Made by a program: the position numbers and the translations under genes. From Rhodoplanes sp. Z2-YC6860 (GTDB lineage Bacteria; Pseudomonadota; Alphaproteobacteria; Rhizobiales; Xanthobacteraceae), in contig NZ_CP007440.1 of assembly GCF_001579845.1 (NCBI RefSeq), forward strand, positions 2,998,029 to 3,062,028: a stretch of 64,000 bases of DNA. Reading direction: 5' to 3'. A model generated the notes under the pieces. It had not been told where the DNA came from and did not search any database. It was given only the letters and a program-made list of their open reading frames with translations. Below are positions 5,173 to 16,633 of the stretch, piece after piece. The number at the start of each line of letters is the position of its first letter. The stretch's first letter is position 1.

Positions 5173-5892
5173 TCAGCCGTTCATCGCCTCGTGCTTCCAC
5201 ACGTCCCACGAGTCGCCGAGGCGCTGCGGATCGAGCATCTCGTCCTCCGAGATGTATTTGATCGGCTTGCCGAACGACAGTGCGGTGGCGAGCTGCTTGG
5301 CGTTGATCTCGGTGTAAAGCGCGCGATGCACGACACGCGGGATGTCGGGCGCGACCACCAGATTGCCGTGGCCGCGCATCAGCGCCACCGGCTTGTCGCC
5401 CAGGATCTTCGCAAGTTCTGCGCCCTGCTCATTGTTGGTGATCAGAAGGCCCTTGGTCCGGCTGACCTTGTGGAAATCGAACACGGGACAGCCGCAGGCC
5501 AGGAACGAAGCCACGCTCGACACCGCGCGCAGCGGCTGGTCGGTCACCGAGAACGGCACGATCGTCGGCGAGTGGCTGTGCACCACGGCGTTGACGTCCG
5601 GCCGTGCCTTGAACGCGTTGCCGTGGATGAAGCGTTCGAGAAAGCAGCGCCGGTCGCGCTGGTCGACCGGATTGGAGTCGAGGTCGAACTCCATGATGTC
5701 TTCGATCGACACCATCGCGGGAGCCCGCGCACGCGACATCAGATAGCGCTGCGGATTGCTCGGATGCCGCATCGACACATGGCCCCAGGCATCGAGCACG
5801 CCGTGATGCGCGAGAATGCGGCTCGCGGCGACGAGATCTTCGATCAGCTTGGCGTCGACCGGGCCGGCGGAGGAAAGCTTCGCGTCAGACAT
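5173..5892 (-). CDS. Class II aldolase/adducin family protein
   Basis: 239 residues. Zinc-ligand histidines of the family are visible: the pair in VVHSHSPTIVPF and a third in VVHRALYTE. HGVLDAWGHVSMRHP is the conserved N-terminal block. Members are fuculose-phosphate-type aldolases, ribulose-phosphate epimerases, or decarboxylase/hydrolase-like enzymes in aromatic catabolism; the exact reaction cannot be assigned. The gene ends 10 bases before a Bug gene begins in the direction opposite to the coordinates, so the three Bug genes at 5903-8913 lie upstream and may be co-transcribed with it. Confidence 0.88.
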   Translation of the reverse strand: MSDAKLSSAGPVDAKLIEDLVAASRILAHHGVLDAWGHVSMRHPSNPQRYLMSRARAPAMVSIEDIMEFDLDSNPVDQRDRRCFLERFIHGNAFKARPDVNAVVHSHSPTIVPFSVTDQPLRAVSSVASFLACGCPVFDFHKVSRTKGLLITNNEQGAELAKILGDKPVALMRGHGNLVVAPDIPRVVHRALYTEINAKQLATALSFGKPIKYISEDEMLDPQRLGDSWDVWKHEAMNG

Positions 5893-5902
5893 GAGGTCCC
5901 CT

Positions 5903-6889
5903 TCAGTTCATTTGGAAGCCGGTCGCCTGCACGACCGGAATCCATACCTTCATTTCGCTCGCGAGGAGTTTTGTAAAGTCCTCTGGTGTTCCGCCATGCG
6001 GATCGAAGCCGATCCGCCGGATCGCGGCGATGACGTCAGACGATTTCAGGCTGTCATTGACCGCAGCGTTGATGCGCTGCACGGCGTCAGCCGGCACGCC
6101 GCGCGGGCCGAGGATGCCGTAATAGGTGAGCGACGCGACTTGCGGCAAGCCGCTTTCCGCCATGGTCGGCACGTCCGGCAGTTCGTGATTGCGCTCCGCG
6201 CTCGTCATCGCGAGCGCGCGGAGCTTGCCCTCGCGGACCAGCGGCGCGAGCGTCGAGATGGTGCCGATGTTCATCTGCACGCGGCCGCCCAGCATATCGG
6301 TCACGGCCTGTGCGCCTCCCTTATAGGGGATGTCGGCGATGTCCGTTCCGGTCGCGCGCTTGAACATCTCACCGACGAGTTGCGGCAGCGTGCCCTGGCC
6401 GAAGCCGAAATTGAGCTTGCCCGGGTTGGCCTTGGCATAGGCGACGAACTCGGCGAGCGTTTTGGCGGGCACATCGGGGGCGATCACCAGCATCAATCCG
6501 CCGCTCGCGATCGTCGCGATGGGCACGAAGTCCTTCAACGGATCGTAGGTCAGTGACTTGTTGACCAGCGGCGAGATGAAATGCGTCGGGCTGTTGGAGA
6601 TCAGCAGCGTATAGCCGTCGGGCTCGGCGCTCATCACCGCCTTGACGCCGATGGTGGTGCCGCCGCCCGGCCGGTTGTCGACCACGACCGACTGACCAAG
6701 GTTCACCGCCATCGGCGCAGCAATCAGGCGCGCCACCACGTCGTTGGGCGAGCCGGGCGTAAAAGGCGCGATCATCTTGATCGGACGGTCCGGAAAGCTG
6801 TCCGCGGCGGCAGGCGCAGCAAGACCCGTCACCCAAAGCATTGTTGCGCCCAGTATTCGCGCCGCGAACCTCATCGGCGTCACGCTCAC
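5903..6889 (-). CDS. Bug-family solute-binding protein
   Basis: 328 residues from a GTG at 6889; an in-frame ATG at 6874 (MRFAARI) is an equally reasonable start. The GTG overlaps the stop of the preceding Bug gene by 4 bases, which favours it and implies coupled translation. Signal peptide ends near APAAADSFP. Family blocks: APFTPGSPNDVVARL, VVVDNRPGGGTTIG and DGYTLLI. It is the last of three tandem Bug genes on this strand, followed by the class II aldolase. Confidence 0.9.
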   Translation of the reverse strand: MSVTPMRFAARILGATMLWVTGLAAPAAADSFPDRPIKMIAPFTPGSPNDVVARLIAAPMAVNLGQSVVVDNRPGGGTTIGVKAVMSAEPDGYTLLISNSPTHFISPLVNKSLTYDPLKDFVPIATIASGGLMLVIAPDVPAKTLAEFVAYAKANPGKLNFGFGQGTLPQLVGEMFKRATGTDIADIPYKGGAQAVTDMLGGRVQMNIGTISTLAPLVREGKLRALAMTSAERNHELPDVPTMAESGLPQVASLTYYGILGPRGVPADAVQRINAAVNDSLKSSDVIAAIRRIGFDPHGGTPEDFTKLLASEMKVWIPVVQATGFQMN

Positions 6890-7884
6890 TTCGATTGCTC
6901 AGCCGCCTGCTTGGCGATCCGCCCGGCCACCGGCCGCCAGGTGCGCTGCTGCTCCTCGGCAAAGGCCACGACCTCCGCAGGGGTCATCGGATGCAGATAG
7001 GCGCCGAGCGCCCCAAGCTTGGTCTTCACTTCGGCTTCGTCGAGCGCCTTGCGCAGATCAATGCTGGCTTTCTGGATGACGGCGTCCGGCGTGCCGACCG
7101 GCGCGAGCAGAACGTTCCAGCCGCCGGCGAAAAAGCCCGGCAATGTCTCCGCGACCGTCGGCAGGTCTTTGAAGTCGTCGAGCCGCTGATGCGAGGCGAC
7201 GGCAATGCCCTTGATGACGCCGCTGGTGAGCCCGCCCGCCAATCCCGAATAGCCTTCGAGCACCACGGCAACGCGCCCGGTGGCGAGGTCGGCCATCGCT
7301 GCGGTCGGCCCGCCCGTATAAGGGATCATCTGCATCTTGATGCCGGCGCGGTCCTGCAGCAACTCCATGGTCAGGTGTGTGATGCGGCCGCGCCCCGTCG
7401 TTGCATAAGAGAGTTCGCCGGGCTTCTGCTTGGCGAGCGCAATCAGGTCCGGCAGCGATTTGATGCCTGAGGCTGGCGATGCCGCGATGAACATGGGCTG
7501 TTCAGTCATGAAACCAATCGGCGAAAAGTCGCGAGGCAACTCGATTGGCAGATTGGGCGCGACGCCCGGTGCGCCCTTCAACGCCGTGAACGTCGATGCA
7601 GCGCCGACATAAAGCGTATAGCCGTCCGGCGCGGCTTGCGACGCCGCACGCACCGCGATCGAGCCGCCGGCGCCGGGTTGGTTGATGACGATGGCCTGCT
7701 GGCCCCAGACTTGGGTGAGGCGATCGGCCATCAGGCGGGCCGAAACGTCAGTGGCGCTGCCTGCCGCCGAGTCGACGATGATGCGGACCGGCTTGTTCGG
7801 ATAAGTCTCGCTCTGCGCCCACGTACCCGATGGAAGCGCAGCCACCATGGCCGCAAGTGCAATTGCCCGGGACCATCTCGTCAT
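6886..7884 (-). CDS. Bug-family solute-binding protein
   Basis: 332 residues. Signal peptide MTRWSRAIALAAMVAALPSGTWAQ (split here as residues 1-24). Ligand-binding blocks VDSAAGSATDVSARL, AIVINQPGAGGSIA and DGYTLYV are present. The first block has VDSAAGS where most relatives have PFxPGG, so the ligand pocket loop differs from its neighbours and the three tandem copies may not be redundant. GGGAGG lies 6 bases before the ATG. Ligand unknown. Confidence 0.9.
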   Translation of the reverse strand: MTRWSRAIALAAMVAALPSGTWAQSETYPNKPVRIIVDSAAGSATDVSARLMADRLTQVWGQQAIVINQPGAGGSIAVRAASQAAPDGYTLYVGAASTFTALKGAPGVAPNLPIELPRDFSPIGFMTEQPMFIAASPASGIKSLPDLIALAKQKPGELSYATTGRGRITHLTMELLQDRAGIKMQMIPYTGGPTAAMADLATGRVAVVLEGYSGLAGGLTSGVIKGIAVASHQRLDDFKDLPTVAETLPGFFAGGWNVLLAPVGTPDAVIQKASIDLRKALDEAEVKTKLGALGAYLHPMTPAEVVAFAEEQQRTWRPVAGRIAKQAAEQSK

Positions 7885-7920
7885 TGCGTCCTCCCTCAGT
7901 CGGTGATGTGCGTATCCGTG

Positions 7921-8913
7921 TCACTCGCTCTTGATGCCGGCGGCCTTGATCACCGGCCACCAGCGTTCGATCTCGGCCTTCTGCTGCGCCGCCAGTGCTG
8001 CCGGATTTTGTTGATCGGCCGGCCACACCTCCTGGCCGATATCGGCCATGCGCTTCTTCACCGTCTCGTCGGCGAGCGTCTCGACCATCGCGGCATTGAG
8101 CCTGGCGATAACGTCCTTCGGCGTGCCCCTAGGTGCCCACAGCCCGTGCCAGAACGACGCGTCCAATCCTTTGACGCCAGCCTCGTCCATGGTCGGCACG
8201 TCGGGCGCAGCCCACCAGCGTTTCTTCGCCAGCACCGCGAAGGGCTTCAGCGTGCCGCTGCGCACATGGCCGAGATAGTTGGCCGCCTGGCCGAAGGTGA
8301 AGTCGATCTGCCCGGCCAGCATGTCCTGCACCAGCGGTCCACCGCCGCGGTAGGGCACGAGTTGGAATTTCGTGCCGGTGGCCTTTTGGAAAAAGGCCGC
8401 AGCGAGGTCGGTCGGCCCGCCGACACCGACCGCGCCGCCGGTCGCCTTGCCGTCCTGCTGCTTCAGCCAGGCGATGAAGCTCTTGATGTCGTCGGGCGGA
8501 ATCGCCTTGCGCGCCACCAGCCATTGCGGCGTGTCGGCGACCAGCGTGACCGGCTCGAAGTCCTTCACGACGTCGTACTGCAGGTTTTGCGTCACCGCAT
8601 TGATGACGTGCGTCTGATTGTGCCCCAGCACCAGCGTGTAGCCGTCAGGCGCAGAGCGCGCGACGCGCCCGGTGCCGATCGAGCCGCCCGCGCCGGTGAC
8701 ATTCTCGATGATGACTGATTGGCCAAGCGCGGTCTTCATCCGCTCGGTGATGACACGGGCCAGCGTGTCGGATGGTCCGCCAGCCGGATACGGGACGATC
8801 AAGGTGATGGCGCGCGACGGATATGTCTCTGCCTTCGCACCGCAAACTAAAAGCGCAGTTTGGAATAAAACCAAACCCACGATGTGGACCATCGTCCGGC
8901 GCGCGACCCGCAT
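7921..8913 (-). CDS. Bug-family solute-binding protein
   Basis: 330 residues. Signal peptide residues 1 to about 29, ending in GAKAE. Family blocks VPYPAGGPSDTLARV, VIIENVTGAGGSIG and DGYTLVL. GGGAGG precedes the ATG by 5 bases. First gene of the minus-strand series (Bug, Bug, Bug, aldolase). Its start faces the start of the plus-strand haem/propeller cluster across a 132-base spacer, so both units could share a regulatory region. Confidence 0.9.
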   Translation of the reverse strand: MRVARRTMVHIVGLVLFQTALLVCGAKAETYPSRAITLIVPYPAGGPSDTLARVITERMKTALGQSVIIENVTGAGGSIGTGRVARSAPDGYTLVLGHNQTHVINAVTQNLQYDVVKDFEPVTLVADTPQWLVARKAIPPDDIKSFIAWLKQQDGKATGGAVGVGGPTDLAAAFFQKATGTKFQLVPYRGGGPLVQDMLAGQIDFTFGQAANYLGHVRSGTLKPFAVLAKKRWWAAPDVPTMDEAGVKGLDASFWHGLWAPRGTPKDVIARLNAAMVETLADETVKKRMADIGQEVWPADQQNPAALAAQQKAEIERWWPVIKAAGIKSE

Positions 8914-9045: not shown

Positions 9046-11205
9046 ATGAGCCTGAAACAGGTTCTGTTTTCTACAGTTGCGGCGTTCGGCATTGCGGTCA
9101 TCGCGGCAAACGCGCCGGCGACAGCACAGCCCAAGCCGACGGCACCGGCAGCGCCAGTCGCGATCGATGCGGATGATATCGGCGGTGTCGTTACGGGCGC
9201 CAAAGGCCCGGAAGCCGGCGTCTGGGTGATTGCCGAGACCACCGACCTGCCAACGCGCTTCACGCGCAGTGTCGTCACCGACGACAAGGGCCGCTACGTC
9301 ATTCCCGACCTGCCGACCGCCAACTACGAGGTCTGGGTGCGCGGCTACGGCTTGGTCGATTCACCGAGGATGCGAGCCAAGCCGGGGCAGACGCTAAACC
9401 TCACCGCGGTTCAGGCGCCCAGTGAAGCGGCGGCTGCGCATTATTATCCGGCGATCTACTGGTACGTCATGATGAAGTTGCCGCCGCAAAAGGATTTCGG
9501 CGGCTCCTCTGACATTCCGAAGAACATGACGTTCGATGGCTGGCGCAAACAGCTGAACAACGTGGATTGCGTCGGCTGCCATCAGCTGGGCCAGGAGGCG
9601 ACCCGCACGATCCCGGCACAATTCGGTAAGTTTGCCTCCGGTGAGGAGGCCTGGCAGCGGCGCATCCAGTCCGGCCAAGCTGGCGAGATGATGACCAACC
9701 GCTTTGCAGGTCAGTGGGGTGGAGTGCCCTACAAATATTTCGGCGACTGGACCGATCGGGTTGCCAAGGGCGAACTGCCGAAGAACAAGCCGCCGCGGCC
9801 GACCGGTGTCGAGCGCAATCTCGTCGTCACGACCTGGGATTGGTCCACGCCCGACAAGTATATGCACGATCTGATCTCGTCGGACCGACGCAATCCGACC
9901 GTCAACGCCAACGGTCTGCTGTTCGGCTCGCCGGAGTACTCGACCGACAATGCTCCGGTGCTCGATCCGAAGACCAACACCGTTTCATTCTTCAAGATGC
10001 CGGTGGCCGATCCTGGCATGCCTGTGTCATTGGGGCCGGGTCATGCCGGCGCAGTGAAGCCGGCGGCGCCATCGGCGTATTGGGGCGATCAAGTCCTGTG
10101 GGATACCCGCGCCAACAATCACAACTCCATGATTGGTGCCGATGGCCGTATCTGGCTCTCGGCGACAGTGCGCGGGCAGGACAATCCGGCCTGGTGCAAG
10201 AAAGGATCGGACAACGAGTACGCCAAAGTATTTCCGATCGAGAAAAGCCAGCGGCAAGTCGCCGTGCTCGATCCGAAAACGAAAGACTATCAGTTCATCG
10301 ACACCTGCTTCTCCTCCCACCACGATCAGTTCGGTTATGACCCCGACAACACGCTGTGGCTGAGCGGCACAGGACCGGTGGCAGGCTGGGTCAACACGCG
10401 GATTTGGGACGAGACCCATGATGCGCAGAAGGCGATCGGCTGGAGGCCGTTCGTCGCCGACACCAATGGCAACGGCAAGCTCGACGAATTCACCGAGCCC
10501 GGCAAGCCTGAGGACGGCAAGGACATGCGCATCAATGTCGGGTCCGGCCCGTATGCGGTGATGCCGCATCCGAAGGACGGCTCGATCTGGTACGCCAGCG
10601 GCACGTTCGGCGGCGCTGCCGGCTTCCTGCGTTACGATCCGAAAACCAAGCTCAGTGAGCTTTATGTGTTGCCAAAGGAGGCGATCGGTATCCGTGGTGG
10701 CGACATCGACGCCAACGGCGTGCTTTGGGGTTCGGGTTCGGCCGGTGTGCTGATCGAGTTCAATCGCAACAAGTGCAAGGCGCCGAAGACCGGCCCGAGC
10801 GCTGCGGCCGGCATCCAGTGTCCTGAGGCGTTCACGCTGCACAAATATCCGGGGCCGGGCTTTGCCGAAGTGCCGAACTCGAGCGCAGAGGCGAGCTACT
10901 ACACCTGGGTCGATCACCACAACGCGGTCGGCCTTGGCGACAATGTCCCGATCTCGACCGCGAACCTGCAGGATGGTTTCGTCGCCTACAAGGACGGCAA
11001 GATGATCCTGATGAAGGTGCCGTACCCGATGGGCTACTACGCCAAGGGTCTCGACGCCCGCATCGACGATCCGAAGGTCGGCTGGAAGGGCAGGGGCCTG
11101 TGGAGCGCGAGCGGCGACCGCACGCCTTGGCTCAACGAGCGCGGCAAGGGCGCTTATCCGATGGCGGTGCACATCCAGGTGCGTCCGGATCCATTGGCGC
11201 ACTGA
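9046..11205 (+). CDS. Secreted haem c protein: carboxypeptidase-regulatory-like domain plus beta-propeller (copy 1)
   Basis: 719 residues. The ATG at 9046 is chosen because AGGGAGG precedes it by 7-8 bases; the open frame extends upstream without a signal sequence. Residues 1-28 are a Sec signal (ends PATAQ). Residues about 42-105 form an Ig-like carboxypeptidase-regulatory domain (DIGGVVTG, then GRYVIPDLPTANYEVWVRGY). A single c-type haem site CVGCH is at 175-179. From about 290 on, repeated GxIW/GxLW blades (NNHNSMIGADGRIWL, GYDPDNTLWLSG, KDGSIWYASG) suggest a streptogramin-lyase-like propeller. DTNGNGKLDEF at 472 looks like a calcium loop. Conserved cysteines near CFSSHH (421) may form disulfides. 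A periplasmic redox role is inferred; the substrate is unknown. A TATAAG at 8983-8988 may be its -10 element. Confidence 0.85.
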   Translation: MSLKQVLFSTVAAFGIAVIAANAPATAQPKPTAPAAPVAIDADDIGGVVTGAKGPEAGVWVIAETTDLPTRFTRSVVTDDKGRYVIPDLPTANYEVWVRGYGLVDSPRMRAKPGQTLNLTAVQAPSEAAAAHYYPAIYWYVMMKLPPQKDFGGSSDIPKNMTFDGWRKQLNNVDCVGCHQLGQEATRTIPAQFGKFASGEEAWQRRIQSGQAGEMMTNRFAGQWGGVPYKYFGDWTDRVAKGELPKNKPPRPTGVERNLVVTTWDWSTPDKYMHDLISSDRRNPTVNANGLLFGSPEYSTDNAPVLDPKTNTVSFFKMPVADPGMPVSLGPGHAGAVKPAAPSAYWGDQVLWDTRANNHNSMIGADGRIWLSATVRGQDNPAWCKKGSDNEYAKVFPIEKSQRQVAVLDPKTKDYQFIDTCFSSHHDQFGYDPDNTLWLSGTGPVAGWVNTRIWDETHDAQKAIGWRPFVADTNGNGKLDEFTEPGKPEDGKDMRINVGSGPYAVMPHPKDGSIWYASGTFGGAAGFLRYDPKTKLSELYVLPKEAIGIRGGDIDANGVLWGSGSAGVLIEFNRNKCKAPKTGPSAAAGIQCPEAFTLHKYPGPGFAEVPNSSAEASYYTWVDHHNAVGLGDNVPISTANLQDGFVAYKDGKMILMKVPYPMGYYAKGLDARIDDPKVGWKGRGLWSASGDRTPWLNERGKGAYPMAVHIQVRPDPLAH

Positions 11206-11254
11206 GGCGAACGAACGACGTGGGAAGAAAAACGAGGTTGTAACCGACGAACGA

Positions 11255-11282
11255 CGTCGGGGCCGAATGAACGGCCCCGACG
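11255..11282 (+). terminator. Intercistronic hairpin between the two haem/propeller genes
   Basis: Perfect 11-base stem CGTCGGGGCCG (11255-11265) pairing with CGGCCCCGACG (11272-11282) around the loop AATGAA. No U-tract follows, so it is more likely an mRNA-stabilising or partial-termination hairpin than a full terminator. A direct repeat GAACGACGT occurs just before it (about 11213 and 11249). Confidence 0.6.
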
Positions 11283-11320
11283 CATATTCCGACTGGGATT
11301 GGCGACGGCAGGAGGAAATG

Positions 11321-13474
11321 ATGACATTGCGGTCTGTTCTTTTCGCGAGCGCGGCAGCGCTCGGCATTGCGGGTGTTACACTCGGCGCACCCACGGCGAC
11401 AAACGCACAGCAGGCGGCGGCAGTCGCGATCGACAACGACGACATCGGCGGTGTGGTCACCGGGCCAAACGGGCCAGAGGCCGGCGTCTGGGTGATCGCG
11501 GAGACGCGCGATCTGCCGGTGCGCTTCATCCGGAGCGTCGTGACCGACGATCAGGGCCGCTATGTCATCCCCGATCTGCCGAAAGCGAACTACGACATCT
11601 GGGTTCGCGGCTATGGCCTTGTCGACTCGCCGAAGGTCAAGAGCGAGCCGGGCAAGCAGCTCAATCTCACGGCGGTCGCGGCGAAGAACGACGCGGAGGC
11701 TGCGAAATACTATCCGGCGATCTACTGGTACTCGATGATGAAAATCCCCGAGGCGGAGTTCTTTGGCAGCAAGGACGCACCTCCCGGCATGAAGATCACC
11801 GACTACCTCAACGGCATGAAGAACAACGGCTGCGTCGGCTGCCATCAGCTCGGCCAGCTCGCGACCCGGACCATTCCGGAATTCCACATGAAGGCCGGCA
11901 AGACCCATGAGGAAGCCTGGGTCCATCGCACGCAGTCGGGCCAGGCGGGCGAGAACATGATCACCATCGCGGCCGGTCAGCTCGGTGGTGTGCCGTACAA
12001 ATATCTCGCCGACTGGACCGAGCGCGTCGAGAAGGGCGAATTGCCGTTCGCCAAGCCGCAACGCCCGCAGGGCGTCGAGCGCAACATCGTGGTCACGCTG
12101 CGCGACTGGCACAATCCGAAGCAATACCTGCACGATCTGATCACCACCGACCGGCGCTACCCGACGGTCAATGGCTATGGTCCGGTGTATGGGTCTTGCG
12201 AGCATGCCTGCAACGACATGCCGATCCTCGACGTTGTGAAGAACGTCGCCTCGAACTTCGTGCTGCCGACCACGGCCGACATGCCGCTCGCGCTCGGCCC
12301 AGGCAATGCGGGCTCGGTGCATATACTCGGGCCGTCGGCCTATTGGGGCACCGAAGACATCTGGGACAGTAAGGCCAACAACCACAATTCGATGATCGAC
12401 CGGAAGGGCCGCGTCTGGCTCGCCGCGACCGGGCACGTTCCCGACAATCCGGCGTTCTGCAAGAAGGGCTCGACGCATCCTTCGGCGGTCGAGTTCCCGC
12501 TGAACAGCACCAACCGCCGGGTGACGATGTACGACCCGAAGATTGGCAAATACACCGCCTACCAGACCTGCTTCGGCTCGCACCATCTGCAGTTCGGCTA
12601 TGACGCGAACGAGACGTTGTGGATGTCGACCGGCGGCGGTGGCGGCAATGTCGGCTGGATCAACACCAAGATGCTGGACGAGACCGGCGACATCGAGAAG
12701 TCGCAGGGCTGGACCGCGCTGGTGCTCGACACCAACGGCAACGGCGTGCGCGACGAATACACCGAGCCGGGCAAGCCGCAGGAGCCGGGCAAGGATATGC
12801 GTATCGGCCCGACATTCTACGCCGTGATGCCGAGCCCGACCGACGGCTCGATCTGGGGCACGCTGCGAGGCAGTCCGGGCGCGATCGTTCGTGTCGACCC
12901 GGGCAAGAATCCGCACAAGGCATTGTCAGAGATGTACAACGTCCCGCTGCCGGGCTTCGGGCCGCGCGGCGGCGATATCGACAAGCAGGGCCGTGTCTGG
13001 GTGTCGCTCGCGAGCGGCCACATGGGCGTGTTCGACCGCCGTCTGTGCAAGGGGCCGCTCAACGGCCCGAACGCGACGGGCAACCACTGTCCGGAGGGCT
13101 GGAAATTCTACCAGTATCCCGGCCCGGGCTTTAAGGGCATCGGCGAGAACTCAGCGGAGTCGAGCTACTACTCGTGGGTCGACCAGCACAACACCTTCGG
13201 GCTTGGCGAGGACATCCCGATGTCCACGGCCAACCTTGAGGACGGCCTTGTCGCGCTGAAAGACGGCAAGATGATCTCGATCCGCGTGCCGTATCCGCTT
13301 GGCTTCTATGCCAAGGGCTTCGACGGCCGCATCGACGATCCGAATGCCGGCTGGAAGGGCCGCGGGCTGTGGGCCGCCAATGGCGATCGCACACCGTGGA
13401 TGATCGAAGGCGGCAAGGGCACCAAGCCGCTCGCGGCGCACTTCCAGTTGCGGCCCGACCCGCTGGCGCACTAA
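11321..13474 (+). CDS. Secreted haem c protein: carboxypeptidase-regulatory-like domain plus beta-propeller (copy 2)
   Basis: 717 residues. The second of two adjacent ATGs (11321) is used because AGGAGG then has a 5-base spacing; the first leaves only 2. Signal peptide about 1-30. Same architecture as copy 1: DIGGVVTG/GRYVIPDLPKANYDIW domain, haem site CVGCH at 171-175, propeller blades (NNHNSMIDRKGRVWL, DGSIWGTLRG, GRVWVSLASG), calcium-type loop DTNGNGVRDEY at 470, and the same C-terminal RPDPLAH. By eye the two proteins are clearly paralogous along their whole length. Copy 2 has an extra cysteine pair (GSCEHACND) where copy 1 has GSPEYSTDN. Tandem duplication followed by divergence is inferred; the two may form a heterodimer or serve different substrates. 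Confidence 0.85.
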   Translation: MTLRSVLFASAAALGIAGVTLGAPTATNAQQAAAVAIDNDDIGGVVTGPNGPEAGVWVIAETRDLPVRFIRSVVTDDQGRYVIPDLPKANYDIWVRGYGLVDSPKVKSEPGKQLNLTAVAAKNDAEAAKYYPAIYWYSMMKIPEAEFFGSKDAPPGMKITDYLNGMKNNGCVGCHQLGQLATRTIPEFHMKAGKTHEEAWVHRTQSGQAGENMITIAAGQLGGVPYKYLADWTERVEKGELPFAKPQRPQGVERNIVVTLRDWHNPKQYLHDLITTDRRYPTVNGYGPVYGSCEHACNDMPILDVVKNVASNFVLPTTADMPLALGPGNAGSVHILGPSAYWGTEDIWDSKANNHNSMIDRKGRVWLAATGHVPDNPAFCKKGSTHPSAVEFPLNSTNRRVTMYDPKIGKYTAYQTCFGSHHLQFGYDANETLWMSTGGGGGNVGWINTKMLDETGDIEKSQGWTALVLDTNGNGVRDEYTEPGKPQEPGKDMRIGPTFYAVMPSPTDGSIWGTLRGSPGAIVRVDPGKNPHKALSEMYNVPLPGFGPRGGDIDKQGRVWVSLASGHMGVFDRRLCKGPLNGPNATGNHCPEGWKFYQYPGPGFKGIGENSAESSYYSWVDQHNTFGLGEDIPMSTANLEDGLVALKDGKMISIRVPYPLGFYAKGFDGRIDDPNAGWKGRGLWAANGDRTPWMIEGGKGTKPLAAHFQLRPDPLAH

Positions 13475-13500
13475 GCGCGCCGGCGCAACACGCACTGTGA

Positions 13501-13549
13501 CCCTCCCCTCAGGGGAGGGTGAGCGCGCCGCCGATACGGTATCGGCGGC
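13501..13549 (+). terminator. Double hairpin between copy 2 and the membrane-protein genes
   Basis: Two adjacent stems. CCCTCCCCT (13501-13509) pairs with AGGGGAGGG (13511-13519), and GCCGCCGATAC (13527-13537) pairs with GTATCGGCGGC (13539-13549). Neither is followed by a U-tract. The downstream gene has its own GGAGG, so the hairpins may set different transcript levels for the soluble and membrane parts of the cluster. Confidence 0.6.
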
Positions 13550-13572
13550 GGCTCTGAGAGTGGAGGTCGCGA

Positions 13573-14088
13573 ATGGGCCTGATGCCTGATTTCATCCTCG
13601 ATTGGATCGACGTCGGCACCTTCTGGACGATCCTGATGATGACGCATGGCCTCTTGGCCGTGGCGCTGCTCGGCGCCATGACGCATCAGGCGATGTCGGT
13701 GCTGGCGCCGGTGCGCCAGCCGGCCGGCGGCGGTTTCGTCACGCGCTTCCGTGCCGTGCAGGGCGCAGGCTATGCCTCTGCGGTCTGCGTGCTGTGGATC
13801 GTGACCTTCCTCTTTGGCGCCTGGATCTACACCAAATACCGGATGTACGTTCGCATCCCGATCGAGGCGCAGGGCTATTACAAGACGCTCGGCGTGTTCG
13901 ACCTCAAGGAGCACGTTGCCGTCATCGGTCTGTTCCTGCTGCCGATCTATTGGTACCTCTGGAAGAACGTCCGCAACGCCGAGTACGACAGCCCGCGCCG
14001 CTGGCTGACCGTTCTGATGGCCGCGATGGTCTGGTACCTGTTCCTGGTCGGGCACTTCCTCAACAACGTGAGGGGCTTTGGCTCATGA
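13573..14088 (+). CDS. Small four-helix membrane protein, possible b-type cytochrome
   Basis: 171 residues, not recognised as a named family. Four hydrophobic segments are visible: about 14-40 (FWTILMMTHGLLAVALLGAM), 60-82 (VCVLWIVTFLFGAWIY), 104-122 (HVAVIGLFLLPIYWYLW) and 137-158 (LTVLMAAMVWYLFLVGHF). Histidines sit in or beside the first, third and fourth (MTHGLL, GAMTHQ, KEHVAV, VGHFLNN), as expected for axial haem b ligands, but this is inference. GGAGG lies 6 bases before the ATG. The stop overlaps the next gene by 4 bases. Location after two haem c proteins suggests a membrane electron partner, for example to or from quinone. Confidence 0.75.
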   Translation: MGLMPDFILDWIDVGTFWTILMMTHGLLAVALLGAMTHQAMSVLAPVRQPAGGGFVTRFRAVQGAGYASAVCVLWIVTFLFGAWIYTKYRMYVRIPIEAQGYYKTLGVFDLKEHVAVIGLFLLPIYWYLWKNVRNAEYDSPRRWLTVLMAAMVWYLFLVGHFLNNVRGFGS

Positions 14089-14474
14089 CGACCACGACCG
14101 ACATCCGCCCTACAAGCCAAGCCGGGTCGCTGGCATCATCGGCCGCGTTCCGGACCTTCGCGGTGGTGTTCGCGATTACTGCGCCGGTGATCTATGTGAT
14201 CTGCGAGATGCAGAACTGGCCGCTGTTCACCTATCAGCCGGCGTCCAATCAATTCGATTGGTTCTTTGTGCCGCCGGTGCGCGATCATGGCCCGACGATG
14301 TACTGGTACGGCTGGATCGCGAACGCGGCGATCGGGTCGGGCATTCTCGGCATTCTTGCGCTCCTGCTGCCCGAACGGGTCGTCAGCCGGATTCCGCTGT
14401 CGCTGGTCTGGATCGTGCCGCTCGCGGCGATGCCGGTCCTGGTCTACGCGCTGCGCTTTTTCTGGCGGTGGTAG
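14085..14474 (+). CDS. Small three-helix membrane protein
   Basis: 129 residues, family not recognised. The ATG at 14085 overlaps the previous stop as ATGA. Three hydrophobic segments: about 24-44 (FAVVFAITAPVIYVICEM), 74-98 (WYGWIANAAIGSGILGILAL) and 104-125 (LSLVWIVPLAAMPVLVYAL). Between the first two is a roughly 28-residue stretch with WPLFTYQPASNQFDWFF and VRDHGPTMYW. Overlap with the four-helix gene implies the two proteins are made together, probably as subunits of one membrane complex. Function unknown. Confidence 0.75.
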   Translation: MTTTTDIRPTSQAGSLASSAAFRTFAVVFAITAPVIYVICEMQNWPLFTYQPASNQFDWFFVPPVRDHGPTMYWYGWIANAAIGSGILGILALLLPERVVSRIPLSLVWIVPLAAMPVLVYALRFFWRW

Positions 14475-14554
14475 GGCGCGAGACCCGGATTGGTCGGCCC
14501 GAGCGATTGCGCTAAAATGGCGCCAAAGAAGTTTAGCCCGTTCGGGAGGCTCGC

Positions 14555-14941
14555 ATGACTGTGCTGATGCGGATGATGGCGCTCGTGGCGGCTGGTGTGC
14601 TCGCGCTCGGCGCGCCGGCCTTCGCCGGCGGCGACGACTACGATGCCGCCAACGACACCGAGGGCGCAGGCCCTGCGTATTTCGGCTTCGTGCGTGACCA
14701 GCGCGGCGCGCCGGTGTCGGATGCGCAGGTGTTCCTCACGCCCAAGAGCGGCCAGCAGGTGGCGCTGAAGACCAACGTGCTCGGGCTCTATCGCAGTCAC
14801 GTCAACAAGGACACGTTGCCGGACGATGTGGCCATCTCCTGCGAGAAGGATGGCTACAGGCAGGACAAGGTGTTCCGCAGGACGCCGCCTGGCGCCAAGG
14901 ACATGTTCATCGAGACCGATTGCACGCTGCGGCGGCTTTAA
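14555..14941 (+). CDS. Exported carboxypeptidase-regulatory-like domain protein
   Basis: 128 residues. Signal peptide 1 to about 24 (ends PAFAGG). The rest is one Ig-like regulatory-type domain: AYFGFVRDQRGAPVSDAQVF, then TNVLGLYRSHVNKD and the closing DTDxTL-like strand. Two cysteines (in ISCEKDG and TDCTLRRL) could form a disulfide. This is a free-standing version of the kind of domain at the N-terminus of both haem/propeller proteins, so it may assemble with them. GGGAGG precedes the ATG. The amidohydrolase begins 6 bases after its stop. Confidence 0.8.
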   Translation: MTVLMRMMALVAAGVLALGAPAFAGGDDYDAANDTEGAGPAYFGFVRDQRGAPVSDAQVFLTPKSGQQVALKTNVLGLYRSHVNKDTLPDDVAISCEKDGYRQDKVFRRTPPGAKDMFIETDCTLRRL

Positions 14942-14947
14942 ACGTCG

Positions 14948-16633
14948 ATGCGGCTCGCGTTCCGGGCGACGCTTTTCGCAATCGTCGGCTGCCTGACGCT
15001 GTTCCGCATATCGGCGGCTGGCGCCCAATCGTCCGACACGATCCTCATCAATGGCAAGATCGTGGTCTACGATGCGGCGCCCGCGCAGGCGCTTGCGGTG
15101 CGCGACGGCAAGATCGCAGCGATTGGCACCACCACCGAGATCCGCGCTACAGCCGGCCCCTCCACCCGCGTCATCGATCTCGGTGGCCGCACCGTCATCC
15201 CGGGCCTGATCGATTCCCACATTCACGCGATCCGCGCGGGGCTGACCTGGCAGACCGAGGTGCACTGGATCGGCATCCGCACGCTGGCCGAGGCACTCGA
15301 CCGGCTGCGCGCTGCTGCCAAGACCGCGCCGAAAGGCTCGTGGCTGATTGTGGCTGGCGGCTGGACCGCGCGGCAGTTCAAGGAGGACCGCCGCCCGACG
15401 GAGACCGAGATTGCCGCCGCGGCGCCCGACCACCATGTCTATGTGCAGGAACTCTACAGCCGCGTGCTGCTCGATCCGAAAGGCTTCGCGGCACTCGGCA
15501 TTCCGTCCGATCTTGCGTCGCGCATCACCATCGAGCGCGACAAGGATGGCGCGCCGACGGGCTGGCTCACCGGCGACAACCGCGCCATCAGCGAATTGTT
15601 CGATCTCCTGCCGCGGCCCGATTTCGCCCAGAAGGTCGCGGGCACCAAGGCCTTCTTCCGGGCGCTCAACGCCATGGGACTGACCGGCGTGATCGATCCT
15701 GGAGGATACAACCTCCCGATTGCCGACTATCAGCCGTTGTTTCAGATCTGGCGCGAGCGCGCACTCACGCTTCGCGTCCGCTACAGCTTGAGCGCGCCGC
15801 GCCGCGATCACGAGCTTGAAGACTTCCAGGATCTCACGCAGGTGCTGCCGATGGGCTTCGGCGACGACTGGCTGCGTTTCAACGGCATCGGCGAGAACGT
15901 CACCTGGGGCTTTTACAACAATGACAAGCCGACTGACGCTCAGAAGGAGCAGCTCGCCGACGTGCTGCGCTGGGCAGTCAGCCGCGGCATGACGGCGATC
16001 TTCCACTGGCACAACGACAAGGCGGTGCATCATCTCCTCGACGTGCTGGAGCGCATCAACGCCGAAACGCCGATCAGGAAACTGCGCTGGTCGATTGCGC
16101 ATCTGAACGATGCCAGCGTGGAAAGCCTCGCGCGCATGAAGGCTATGGGCGTCGGCTGGCTGATGCAGAACGCGTTTTACTTCCGCGGCGAAGCGTTTCT
16201 CGGCCAGCGCGGCAGCGAGCCGTTGCGCTTCGTGCCGCCGATCGTCACGGCAGCAAAGATGGGCGTGCCGATTGGCGGCGGTACCGACGCGCATCGCGTG
16301 ATGGGGCCCAATCCGTTTGTCTCGCTGCAATGGATGCTCGACAGCAAGACGGTCGGCGGCACGGTGATGCGCGGACCTGAGGAGATCCCGTCTCGTATCG
16401 AGGCGCTGCGCATCTACACCGAAGGCAGCGCCTGGTTCGTGTTCGACGAAGACAAGCGTGCTGCTCTCGCGGCTGGCAAGCTCGCCGATCTGGCGGTGCT
16501 CGATAGGGACTATCTGACGGTGCCGGTGGATGAGATCGGCGGCATCGTCTCGCTGCTCACCATGGTCGGCGGTCGCGTGGTCTACGCTGCTGGTCCTTTT
16601 GAATCCGACGAAGACAGCGTACCGTTTCGCTGA
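14948..16633 (+). CDS. Exported amidohydrolase (Amidohydro_3 / YtcJ-like)
   Basis: 561 residues. Residues 1 to about 27 form a signal peptide (ends AAGAQ). The metal-binding DSHIHA (H91, H93) follows VIDLGGRTVIPGLI, the standard start of the barrel. FHWHNDKAVHHLL, IAHLND and GGGTDAHRVMGPNP supply further likely ligands, and the C-terminal GKLADLAVLDRDYL strand closes the beta-sandwich. YtcJ-type enzymes hydrolyse C-N bonds in amides or ring systems. Export to the periplasm and a 6-base gap to the preceding gene tie it to the haem/propeller cluster; whether it prepares the substrate for that system is inference. Confidence 0.85.
   Translation: MRLAFRATLFAIVGCLTLFRISAAGAQSSDTILINGKIVVYDAAPAQALAVRDGKIAAIGTTTEIRATAGPSTRVIDLGGRTVIPGLIDSHIHAIRAGLTWQTEVHWIGIRTLAEALDRLRAAAKTAPKGSWLIVAGGWTARQFKEDRRPTETEIAAAAPDHHVYVQELYSRVLLDPKGFAALGIPSDLASRITIERDKDGAPTGWLTGDNRAISELFDLLPRPDFAQKVAGTKAFFRALNAMGLTGVIDPGGYNLPIADYQPLFQIWRERALTLRVRYSLSAPRRDHELEDFQDLTQVLPMGFGDDWLRFNGIGENVTWGFYNNDKPTDAQKEQLADVLRWAVSRGMTAIFHWHNDKAVHHLLDVLERINAETPIRKLRWSIAHLNDASVESLARMKAMGVGWLMQNAFYFRGEAFLGQRGSEPLRFVPPIVTAAKMGVPIGGGTDAHRVMGPNPFVSLQWMLDSKTVGGTVMRGPEEIPSRIEALRIYTEGSAWFVFDEDKRAALAAGKLADLAVLDRDYLTVPVDEIGGIVSLLTMVGGRVVYAAGPFESDEDSVPFR

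Follow-up and report, generated by a model that had tools for sequence, protein, structure and literature searches.

Thiocyanate dehydrogenase, nitrous oxide reductase and galactose oxidase are propellers with copper-binding side chains, and in the four-His iron dioxygenases, of the carotenoid cleavage oxygenase type, several histidines stand on the inner strands of a propeller. Propellers are also found in the virginiamycin B lyase family (PF24684, Vgb_lyase). '4-His Fe dioxygenases' are named in an excerpt of PMC12308385. Here we describe a cluster of six genes, all on the + strand, at positions 9046-16633 of a 64,000-nucleotide stretch of the genome of Rhodoplanes sp. Z2-YC6860 (contig NZ_CP007440.1, 2,998,029 to 3,062,028; hereafter the window). 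Its first two genes encode exported proteins, P0001 and P0002, in which an immunoglobulin (Ig)-like domain and a predicted haem c site precede a propeller; we refer to these and their relatives as haem-propeller proteins. They are followed by two membrane proteins (P0003 and M2), a small exported protein (P0004) and an amidohydrolase (P0005).

We propose that the haem-propeller proteins are periplasmic oxidoreductases, with a His-lined and probably metal-binding pit in the propeller, electrons passing through the fused haem c, and P0003/M2 as partner where these are present. We put the probability of this reading at about one half. The parts are of known kinds, while their combination and gene setting are undescribed in the literature searched: no paper on a haem-propeller protein was found in the open-licence literature, subscription papers and preprints lying outside the scope of that search.

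The gene cluster and its relatives

Gene, domain and alignment checks bore out the six genes, positions, strand and twin secreted proteins given in the initial annotation; the host genome is a single contig of 8.19 Mb. The six open reading frames (Table 1) are not chance, since they are conserved at the protein level in other genomes. P0003 and M2 overlap by 4 nucleotides and P0004 and P0005 are 6 nucleotides apart, the remaining gaps being 80 (M2-P0004), 98 (P0002-P0003) and 112 nucleotides (P0001-P0002). Over their full length P0001 and P0002 share 57% identity (417/728), and a third haem-propeller paralogue, of 51% identity, is encoded elsewhere in the host genome.

Both proteins have hydrophobic, signal-like N-termini and exactly one CxxCH motif (CVGCH), and CcmH, for haem-c maturation, is encoded in the host genome; by this motif both are predicted to be exported c-type cytochromes. 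A CarboxypepD_reg domain (PF13620) was matched by P0001 with E 1.3e-7 and 32.3 bits, exactly the cut-off, and under the cut-off by P0002 (E 8.2e-6, 26.5 bits) and P0004 (22.8 bits). The same domain was matched at E <= 1 by all 13 haem-propeller family members that were scanned against Pfam. Only domains of this type matched P0001 and P0002 with any weight in Pfam, which yielded no model for the haem and propeller part, and NCBIfam gave no match to either protein at E <= 0.1. Curated cytochrome c models matched weakly, Cytochrome_CBB3 in 2 of the 13 members (best E 0.19) and Cytochrom_C in one (E 0.22). For a close relative encoded on a Microvirga plasmid, the annotation reads carboxypeptidase-like regulatory domain protein and nothing more. 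The domain order first proposed (Ig-like regulatory domain, CVGCH, propeller) is thus supported by Pfam, by the motif count and by the structure model described below, and the proposed absence of a named relative has held for the haem and propeller part in Pfam, NCBIfam and the PDB sequences.

Table 1. Genes of the cluster, with positions in the window (aa, amino acids)
Gene	Positions	Strand	Features
P0001, haem-propeller protein 1, clade A, 719 aa	9046-11205	+	Sec-type signal; CarboxypepD_reg ~45-121; C175-x-x-C178-H179 haem-c domain; seven-bladed propeller ~259-712
P0002, haem-propeller protein 2, clade B, 718 aa	11318-13474	+	Architecture as P0001; lineage separate
P0003, membrane protein 1, 171 aa	13573-14088	+	Four long helices in model; invariant H25, H38, H161
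M2, membrane protein 2, 129 aa	14085-14474	+	About three hydrophobic segments
P0004, exported, single CarboxypepD_reg-like domain, 128 aa	14555-14941	+	Invariant C96, C123
P0005, exported Amidohydro_3 enzyme, 561 aa	14948-16633	+	Pfam match; conserved residues

The gaps at 11206-11317 and 13475-13572 carry strong RNA hairpins (z -3.4 and -4.7 against shuffles). Each of the two stems in the latter gap is present once in the genome (<=2 mismatches), so that they represent no repeat family. Uneven expression or processing inside the operon is a possible effect of these intercistronic hairpins.

Haem-propeller matches were found in 16 of 61 related genomes (E <= 0.001, host included). A sample of 398 genomes spread evenly over the phylum, with up to two candidates scored per genome among the rows listed, gave five with a match, two of them weak and partial. 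A scan of named genomes with two short peptide patterns returned at least 593 stretches, of which 580 were confirmed by tblastn. The best 80 of these, which were kept, bear Alpha-, Beta-, Gamma- and Deltaproteobacteria, Acidobacteria and Rokubacteria labels; taxon statements here are drawn from record titles and are rough. Two of the 80 loci (L032 and L084), labelled as Rhodoplanes piscinae metagenome-assembled genomes (MAGs), agree in contig number and position with the matches in genomes G003 and G010 of the host's genus.

Copy number was highest in an Acidobacteria genome (G474), the richest of 26 propeller-bearing genomes, with 16 matches, nine near full length and seven short ones to the N-terminal domain. 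Near-full-length copies were counted by hand in four others: five each in G470 and G476, four in G466 and three in G463. Two Bradyrhizobium genomes carry one homologue apiece. The many copies in these Acidobacteria genomes and in G475 (L158-L177, L181, L182) stand in mostly different neighbourhoods among those listed. At five loci (L050, L100, L042, L043, L073) the label is at odds with the grouping of the gene: genes on contigs labelled Klebsiella pneumoniae or Chitinophaga pinensis group with Betaproteobacteria, and those on Rokubacteria-labelled contigs with Bradyrhizobium and Microvirga, which suggests misnamed or misbinned MAGs, or gene transfer.

Different propellers before one constant membrane module

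The P0003 family was found in 14 of the 61 related genomes, comprising 14 of the 16 that carry a haem-propeller and none of the 45 that do not (Fisher 5e-12). In the phylum draw, with up to nine candidates scored per genome among the rows listed, P0003 was found in 1 of 398 genomes, the host's own. Altogether 29 distinct P0003 places were collected, after places on the same contig were merged (L032/L219, L084/L221, L066/L220) and a 28-residue match (G469:C7) was dropped. A haem-propeller gene lies within ~6 kb at 22 of them; at four others (L195, L196, L208, L209) its place is taken by a CarboxypepD_reg-CxxCH-Vgb_lyase protein of ~550-620 residues, here called c38. The propeller scan supplied thirteen of the 29 places, three of which were also hit by the P0003 search; the less biased figure, from the search driven by P0003, is a propeller at 14 of 16 places (the others being L211 and L212).

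M2 accompanies P0003 at 28 of the 29 places and P0004 does so at 26, lacking only at two contig ends and beside one partial P0003, and gene order and orientation differ at L065, L069, L101, L191 and L192. P0003, M2 and P0004 are a linked unit, with haem-propellers of differing lineages beside it at 26 of the 29 places (the 22 and the four together). The arrangement proposed at the outset is therefore not peculiar to the host: its gene content is kept in relatives, including Betaproteobacteria-labelled loci.

Structure prediction gave P0003 a pLDDT (predicted local distance difference test) of 80, and the three histidines in Table 1 are invariant in 14 P0003 rows. Pfam placed P0003 in no confident family, DUF420 alone matching 3 of 14 members (best E 0.007). 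No PDB match was found by sequence, nor by fold at E <= 0.001, and hhalign found no similarity of P0003 to DUF6644-type or M2 proteins. In fold, P0003 resembles oxidase subunit III at E ~1 only, a likeness that was not used.

A tree of the haem-propeller proteins separates the two copies in the cluster. P0001 clusters with first-slot proteins of relatives. P0002 clusters with the single operon proteins of L096, L097 and L104 (Comamonadaceae/Betaproteobacteria labels) and L100 (Chitinophaga label), and also with own-genus copies on contigs apart from P0003 genes (L017, L019, L020); flanks are short in several tree rows, for which absence of P0003 linkage is a lower bound, and one genome, G008, gave no P0003 match at all. 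A third lineage occupies the second slot in five related genomes (G001, G003, G009, G010 and G020). The tree was built by a quick method, and its one very long branch (L003) is an extraction artefact, the same gene being normal as L183. Since P0001 and P0002 belong to separate lineages and a third lineage can fill slot 2, the host cluster is composite. Different propellers have been exchanged before a membrane module that stays constant. This pattern would follow if substrate choice lay with the propeller and electron transfer with the shared module, the former then being the variable, substrate-handling part and the latter the constant, electron-handling one.

P0005 matched Amidohydro_3 (PF07969) over the whole profile (1-472/472, E 4.8e-80), and H91, H93, H353, H385 and D447 are invariant in 11 sequences, the host's included; individual invariant residues presumably bind metal, as in the family at large. 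The gene stands at 18 of the 29 P0003 places and reads as two open pieces in L085 and L217. That frequency, together with the lack of these genes at most haem-propeller loci (P0003 itself is present at 13 of the 80 named loci, with unequal flanks), could mean that the amidohydrolase, perhaps along with P0004, shares no function with its neighbours, the system consisting of the haem-propellers alone or with P0003 and M2. We regard this as rather unlikely, because P0004 is found at 26 of the 29 places and the amidohydrolase is kept with the module in both Alpha- and Betaproteobacteria-labelled loci, in more than one order and orientation (L065, L069, L192, L210).

A protein of ~180 residues with one CxxCH motif was also encountered at four loci (L195, 4555-5088; L079, 5468-6064; L092, 134-682; L094, 1314-1775). 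In L079 and L195 it stands next to the P0003 module, and in L094 and L092 it is ~3 kb and ~9 kb, respectively, from the propeller gene. A cytochrome c' match was weak for the L195 protein (E 0.0009, under the cut-off) and absent for that of L079. The protein is a candidate soluble electron partner.

Fold, kinship and invariant residues of the propeller

Modelling of P0001 from 78 input sequences (mean pLDDT 89.5, predicted template modelling score 0.89) returned an Ig-like domain, a helical haem domain and a seven-bladed propeller, within the boundaries of Table 1, and so upheld the propeller read earlier from repeats in the sequence. With E <= 0.001 as the limit, a fold search with this model returned 431 PDB matches, and most of the 50 listed are propellers, of sensor, teneurin, WD40, strictosidine synthase, luciferin-regenerating enzyme, galactose oxidase and other types.

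In the 78-row alignment C175, C178, H179 and M216 never vary, and a wider alignment, in which some genes are repeated, shows the same residues in all of the 121-123 rows that are ungapped at these positions; from this conservation M216 is probably the second haem ligand. Of the propeller histidines, four (H274, H359, H425, H426) are invariant and lie at assigned inner-strand starts of blades 1-3, while the seven variable ones lie elsewhere. Y503, R550, Y618/Y619 and R672 occupy similar inner-strand places in blades 4-7. The propeller also has two invariant cysteine pairs, C384/C421 and C577/C592 (pairing assumed), and a stretch from D472 (DTNGNGKLDEFTE in P0001) that resembles what we take to be a calcium-binding loop.

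The nearest described kin of the propeller was reached through the c38 proteins. Four of these score 127, 91, 50.1 and 41 bits against PF24684, three reaching the 50-bit cut-off, and profile comparison of c38 with the haem-propeller family by hhalign gave 99.2% probability over 467 columns at ~21% identity. PF24684 itself matched neither P0001 nor P0002 nor any of the 13 scanned members. From the c38 profile match, the haem-propeller proteins are judged to be far relatives of the virginiamycin B lyase family and, by the Pfam cut-off, not members of it, so that the streptogramin-lyase-type resemblance remarked on in the initial annotation stands at superfamily level only. P0001 and P0002 share the propeller with PF24684, and differ from it in the fused haem-c domain, the invariant histidines and the two invariant cysteine pairs. 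The c38 proteins, which are without described function in the sources searched, have the domain order of the haem-propeller family and, at four places, likewise P0003-M2-P0004 as neighbours. They are shorter, however, and an uncertain alignment shows nothing in them that clearly matches H425/H426 or the haem-propeller cysteines; an SHG motif lies near the H425/H426 position in rows L168 and L098. H359 aligns with a histidine in four of the five distinct c38 rows having letters there (L129 repeats L075).

This kinship with Vgb_lyase-containing proteins, and the shared histidine at H359, would also suit a propeller that is a lyase-type or hydrolytic enzyme, using a divalent metal or His/Tyr/Arg chemistry, with the haem as a structural element or redox sensor. 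We consider that unlikely: the invariance of CxxCH and M216 exceeds what a decorative haem would need, and at L079 and L195 the small CxxCH protein is an immediate neighbour of the P0003 module. Improbable, too, is a propeller serving as a binding or docking platform, the protein being an electron carrier or a sensor that holds a partner, for instance the amidohydrolase or P0004, in position. Binding is a common role of CarboxypepD_reg domains and propellers alike, and among the 50 listed the best solved fold matches are sensor propellers and many others WD40; yet the invariant His, Tyr and Arg at inner-strand starts resemble an active site.

The four-His iron dioxygenases, in which one iron is bound by four histidines at the propeller axis, resemble the haem-propeller family in having several propeller histidines on inner strands, as assigned here, a possible metal site; the haem-propeller family differs in its fused haem c and in drawing its histidines from three blades only, and no Pfam match to the four-His families was found in P0001, P0002 or the 13 scanned members. 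Galactose oxidase (9g43) ranks 46 of the 50 listed P0001 fold matches, a generic match (TM 0.29/0.33, template modelling score), thiocyanate dehydrogenase and nitrous oxide reductase lie outside those 50, and the copper propellers gave no PDB sequence match to the haem-propeller family.

Proposed function and its meaning

Several observations weigh against the oxidoreductase proposal. The PDB sequences gave no meaningful match, and hence no specifically similar solved enzyme, and no specific fold relative of P0001 stands out among the 50 listed. Invariant residues are more frequent at assigned inner-strand starts (10/28) than elsewhere (61/426; Fisher p 0.006), a comparison that is descriptive because the strands were assigned with conserved residues in view. 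No haem- or quinone-binding family was identified for P0003 in Pfam and PDB searches. Three of the 29 P0003 places have no haem-propeller near: L211 is a partial P0003 alone, L212 is a contig end, and L210 (genome G467, 5765-8648) carries amidohydrolase-P0003-M2-P0004 with no haem-propeller within 16 kb; this full module may have another partner, although G467 has a haem-propeller on another contig.

Conversely, 18 of the 26 propeller-bearing genomes gave no P0003-family match, among them both Bradyrhizobium genomes, the one labelled Rokubacteria and all eight labelled Acidobacteria. As P0003-bearing loci were put into this set deliberately, the remaining 8 of 26 overstate the frequency of P0003; on the other hand, incompleteness is possible for the many MAGs in the set. 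The membrane module is therefore accessory and not the general electron partner, and the haem-propeller seems to work without it in most lineages seen. With the amidohydrolase at 18 of the 29 P0003 places, the six-gene complex first envisaged is likewise not general.

On the proposal that we favour, P0001 and P0002 would act as exported oxidoreductases. Substrate would bind in a pit at one end of the propeller, formed by H274, H359, H425/H426, Y503, R550 and Y618/Y619, where the histidines probably hold a metal ion. Electrons would be exchanged, in one direction or the other, with the fused haem c (C175/C178/H179 and probably M216). P0003 and M2 would link the haem to the membrane electron chain in the lineages that carry them, lineages without them using other carriers; exported P0004 may be a binding or assembly partner, and P0005 probably hydrolyses substrate or product in the same compartment. 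More tentatively, the family may represent a new class of periplasmic metallo-oxidoreductase, in which a virginiamycin-lyase-type propeller has gained a His-metal site and a fused haem c, with exchangeable propellers before a constant two-protein membrane partner and nine near-full-length copies in one Acidobacteria genome.

Other neighbours, most of the recurring ones named by eye, were also considered. TctC/Bug receptors, encoded by three genes on the - strand at 5903-8913 of the window, were tried as an uptake partner. A TctC-containing gene cluster stands at 28 of the 80 named propeller loci, but these neighbours are uninformative and were rejected as evidence, because the host genome holds at least 150 TctC matches (150 of 462 candidates scored), an extreme expansion that makes such neighbours expected. 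ABC, short-chain dehydrogenase, metallo-beta-lactamase-fold and amidohydrolase neighbours, and DUF6152- and DUF6644-type genes at three Acidobacteria loci (one member of each was scanned), formed no consistent pathway among those listed.

The haem-propeller proteins form a large family of soil and freshwater bacteria for which the annotation seen, on one Microvirga plasmid, names only the small regulatory domain. Now that candidate residues (H274, H359, H425, H426 and M216), partner genes, and genomes with and without the module have been named, their function is directly testable. If this is indeed a family of redox enzymes, many such bacteria would possess a periplasmic oxidation route that is unassayed in the literature searched.

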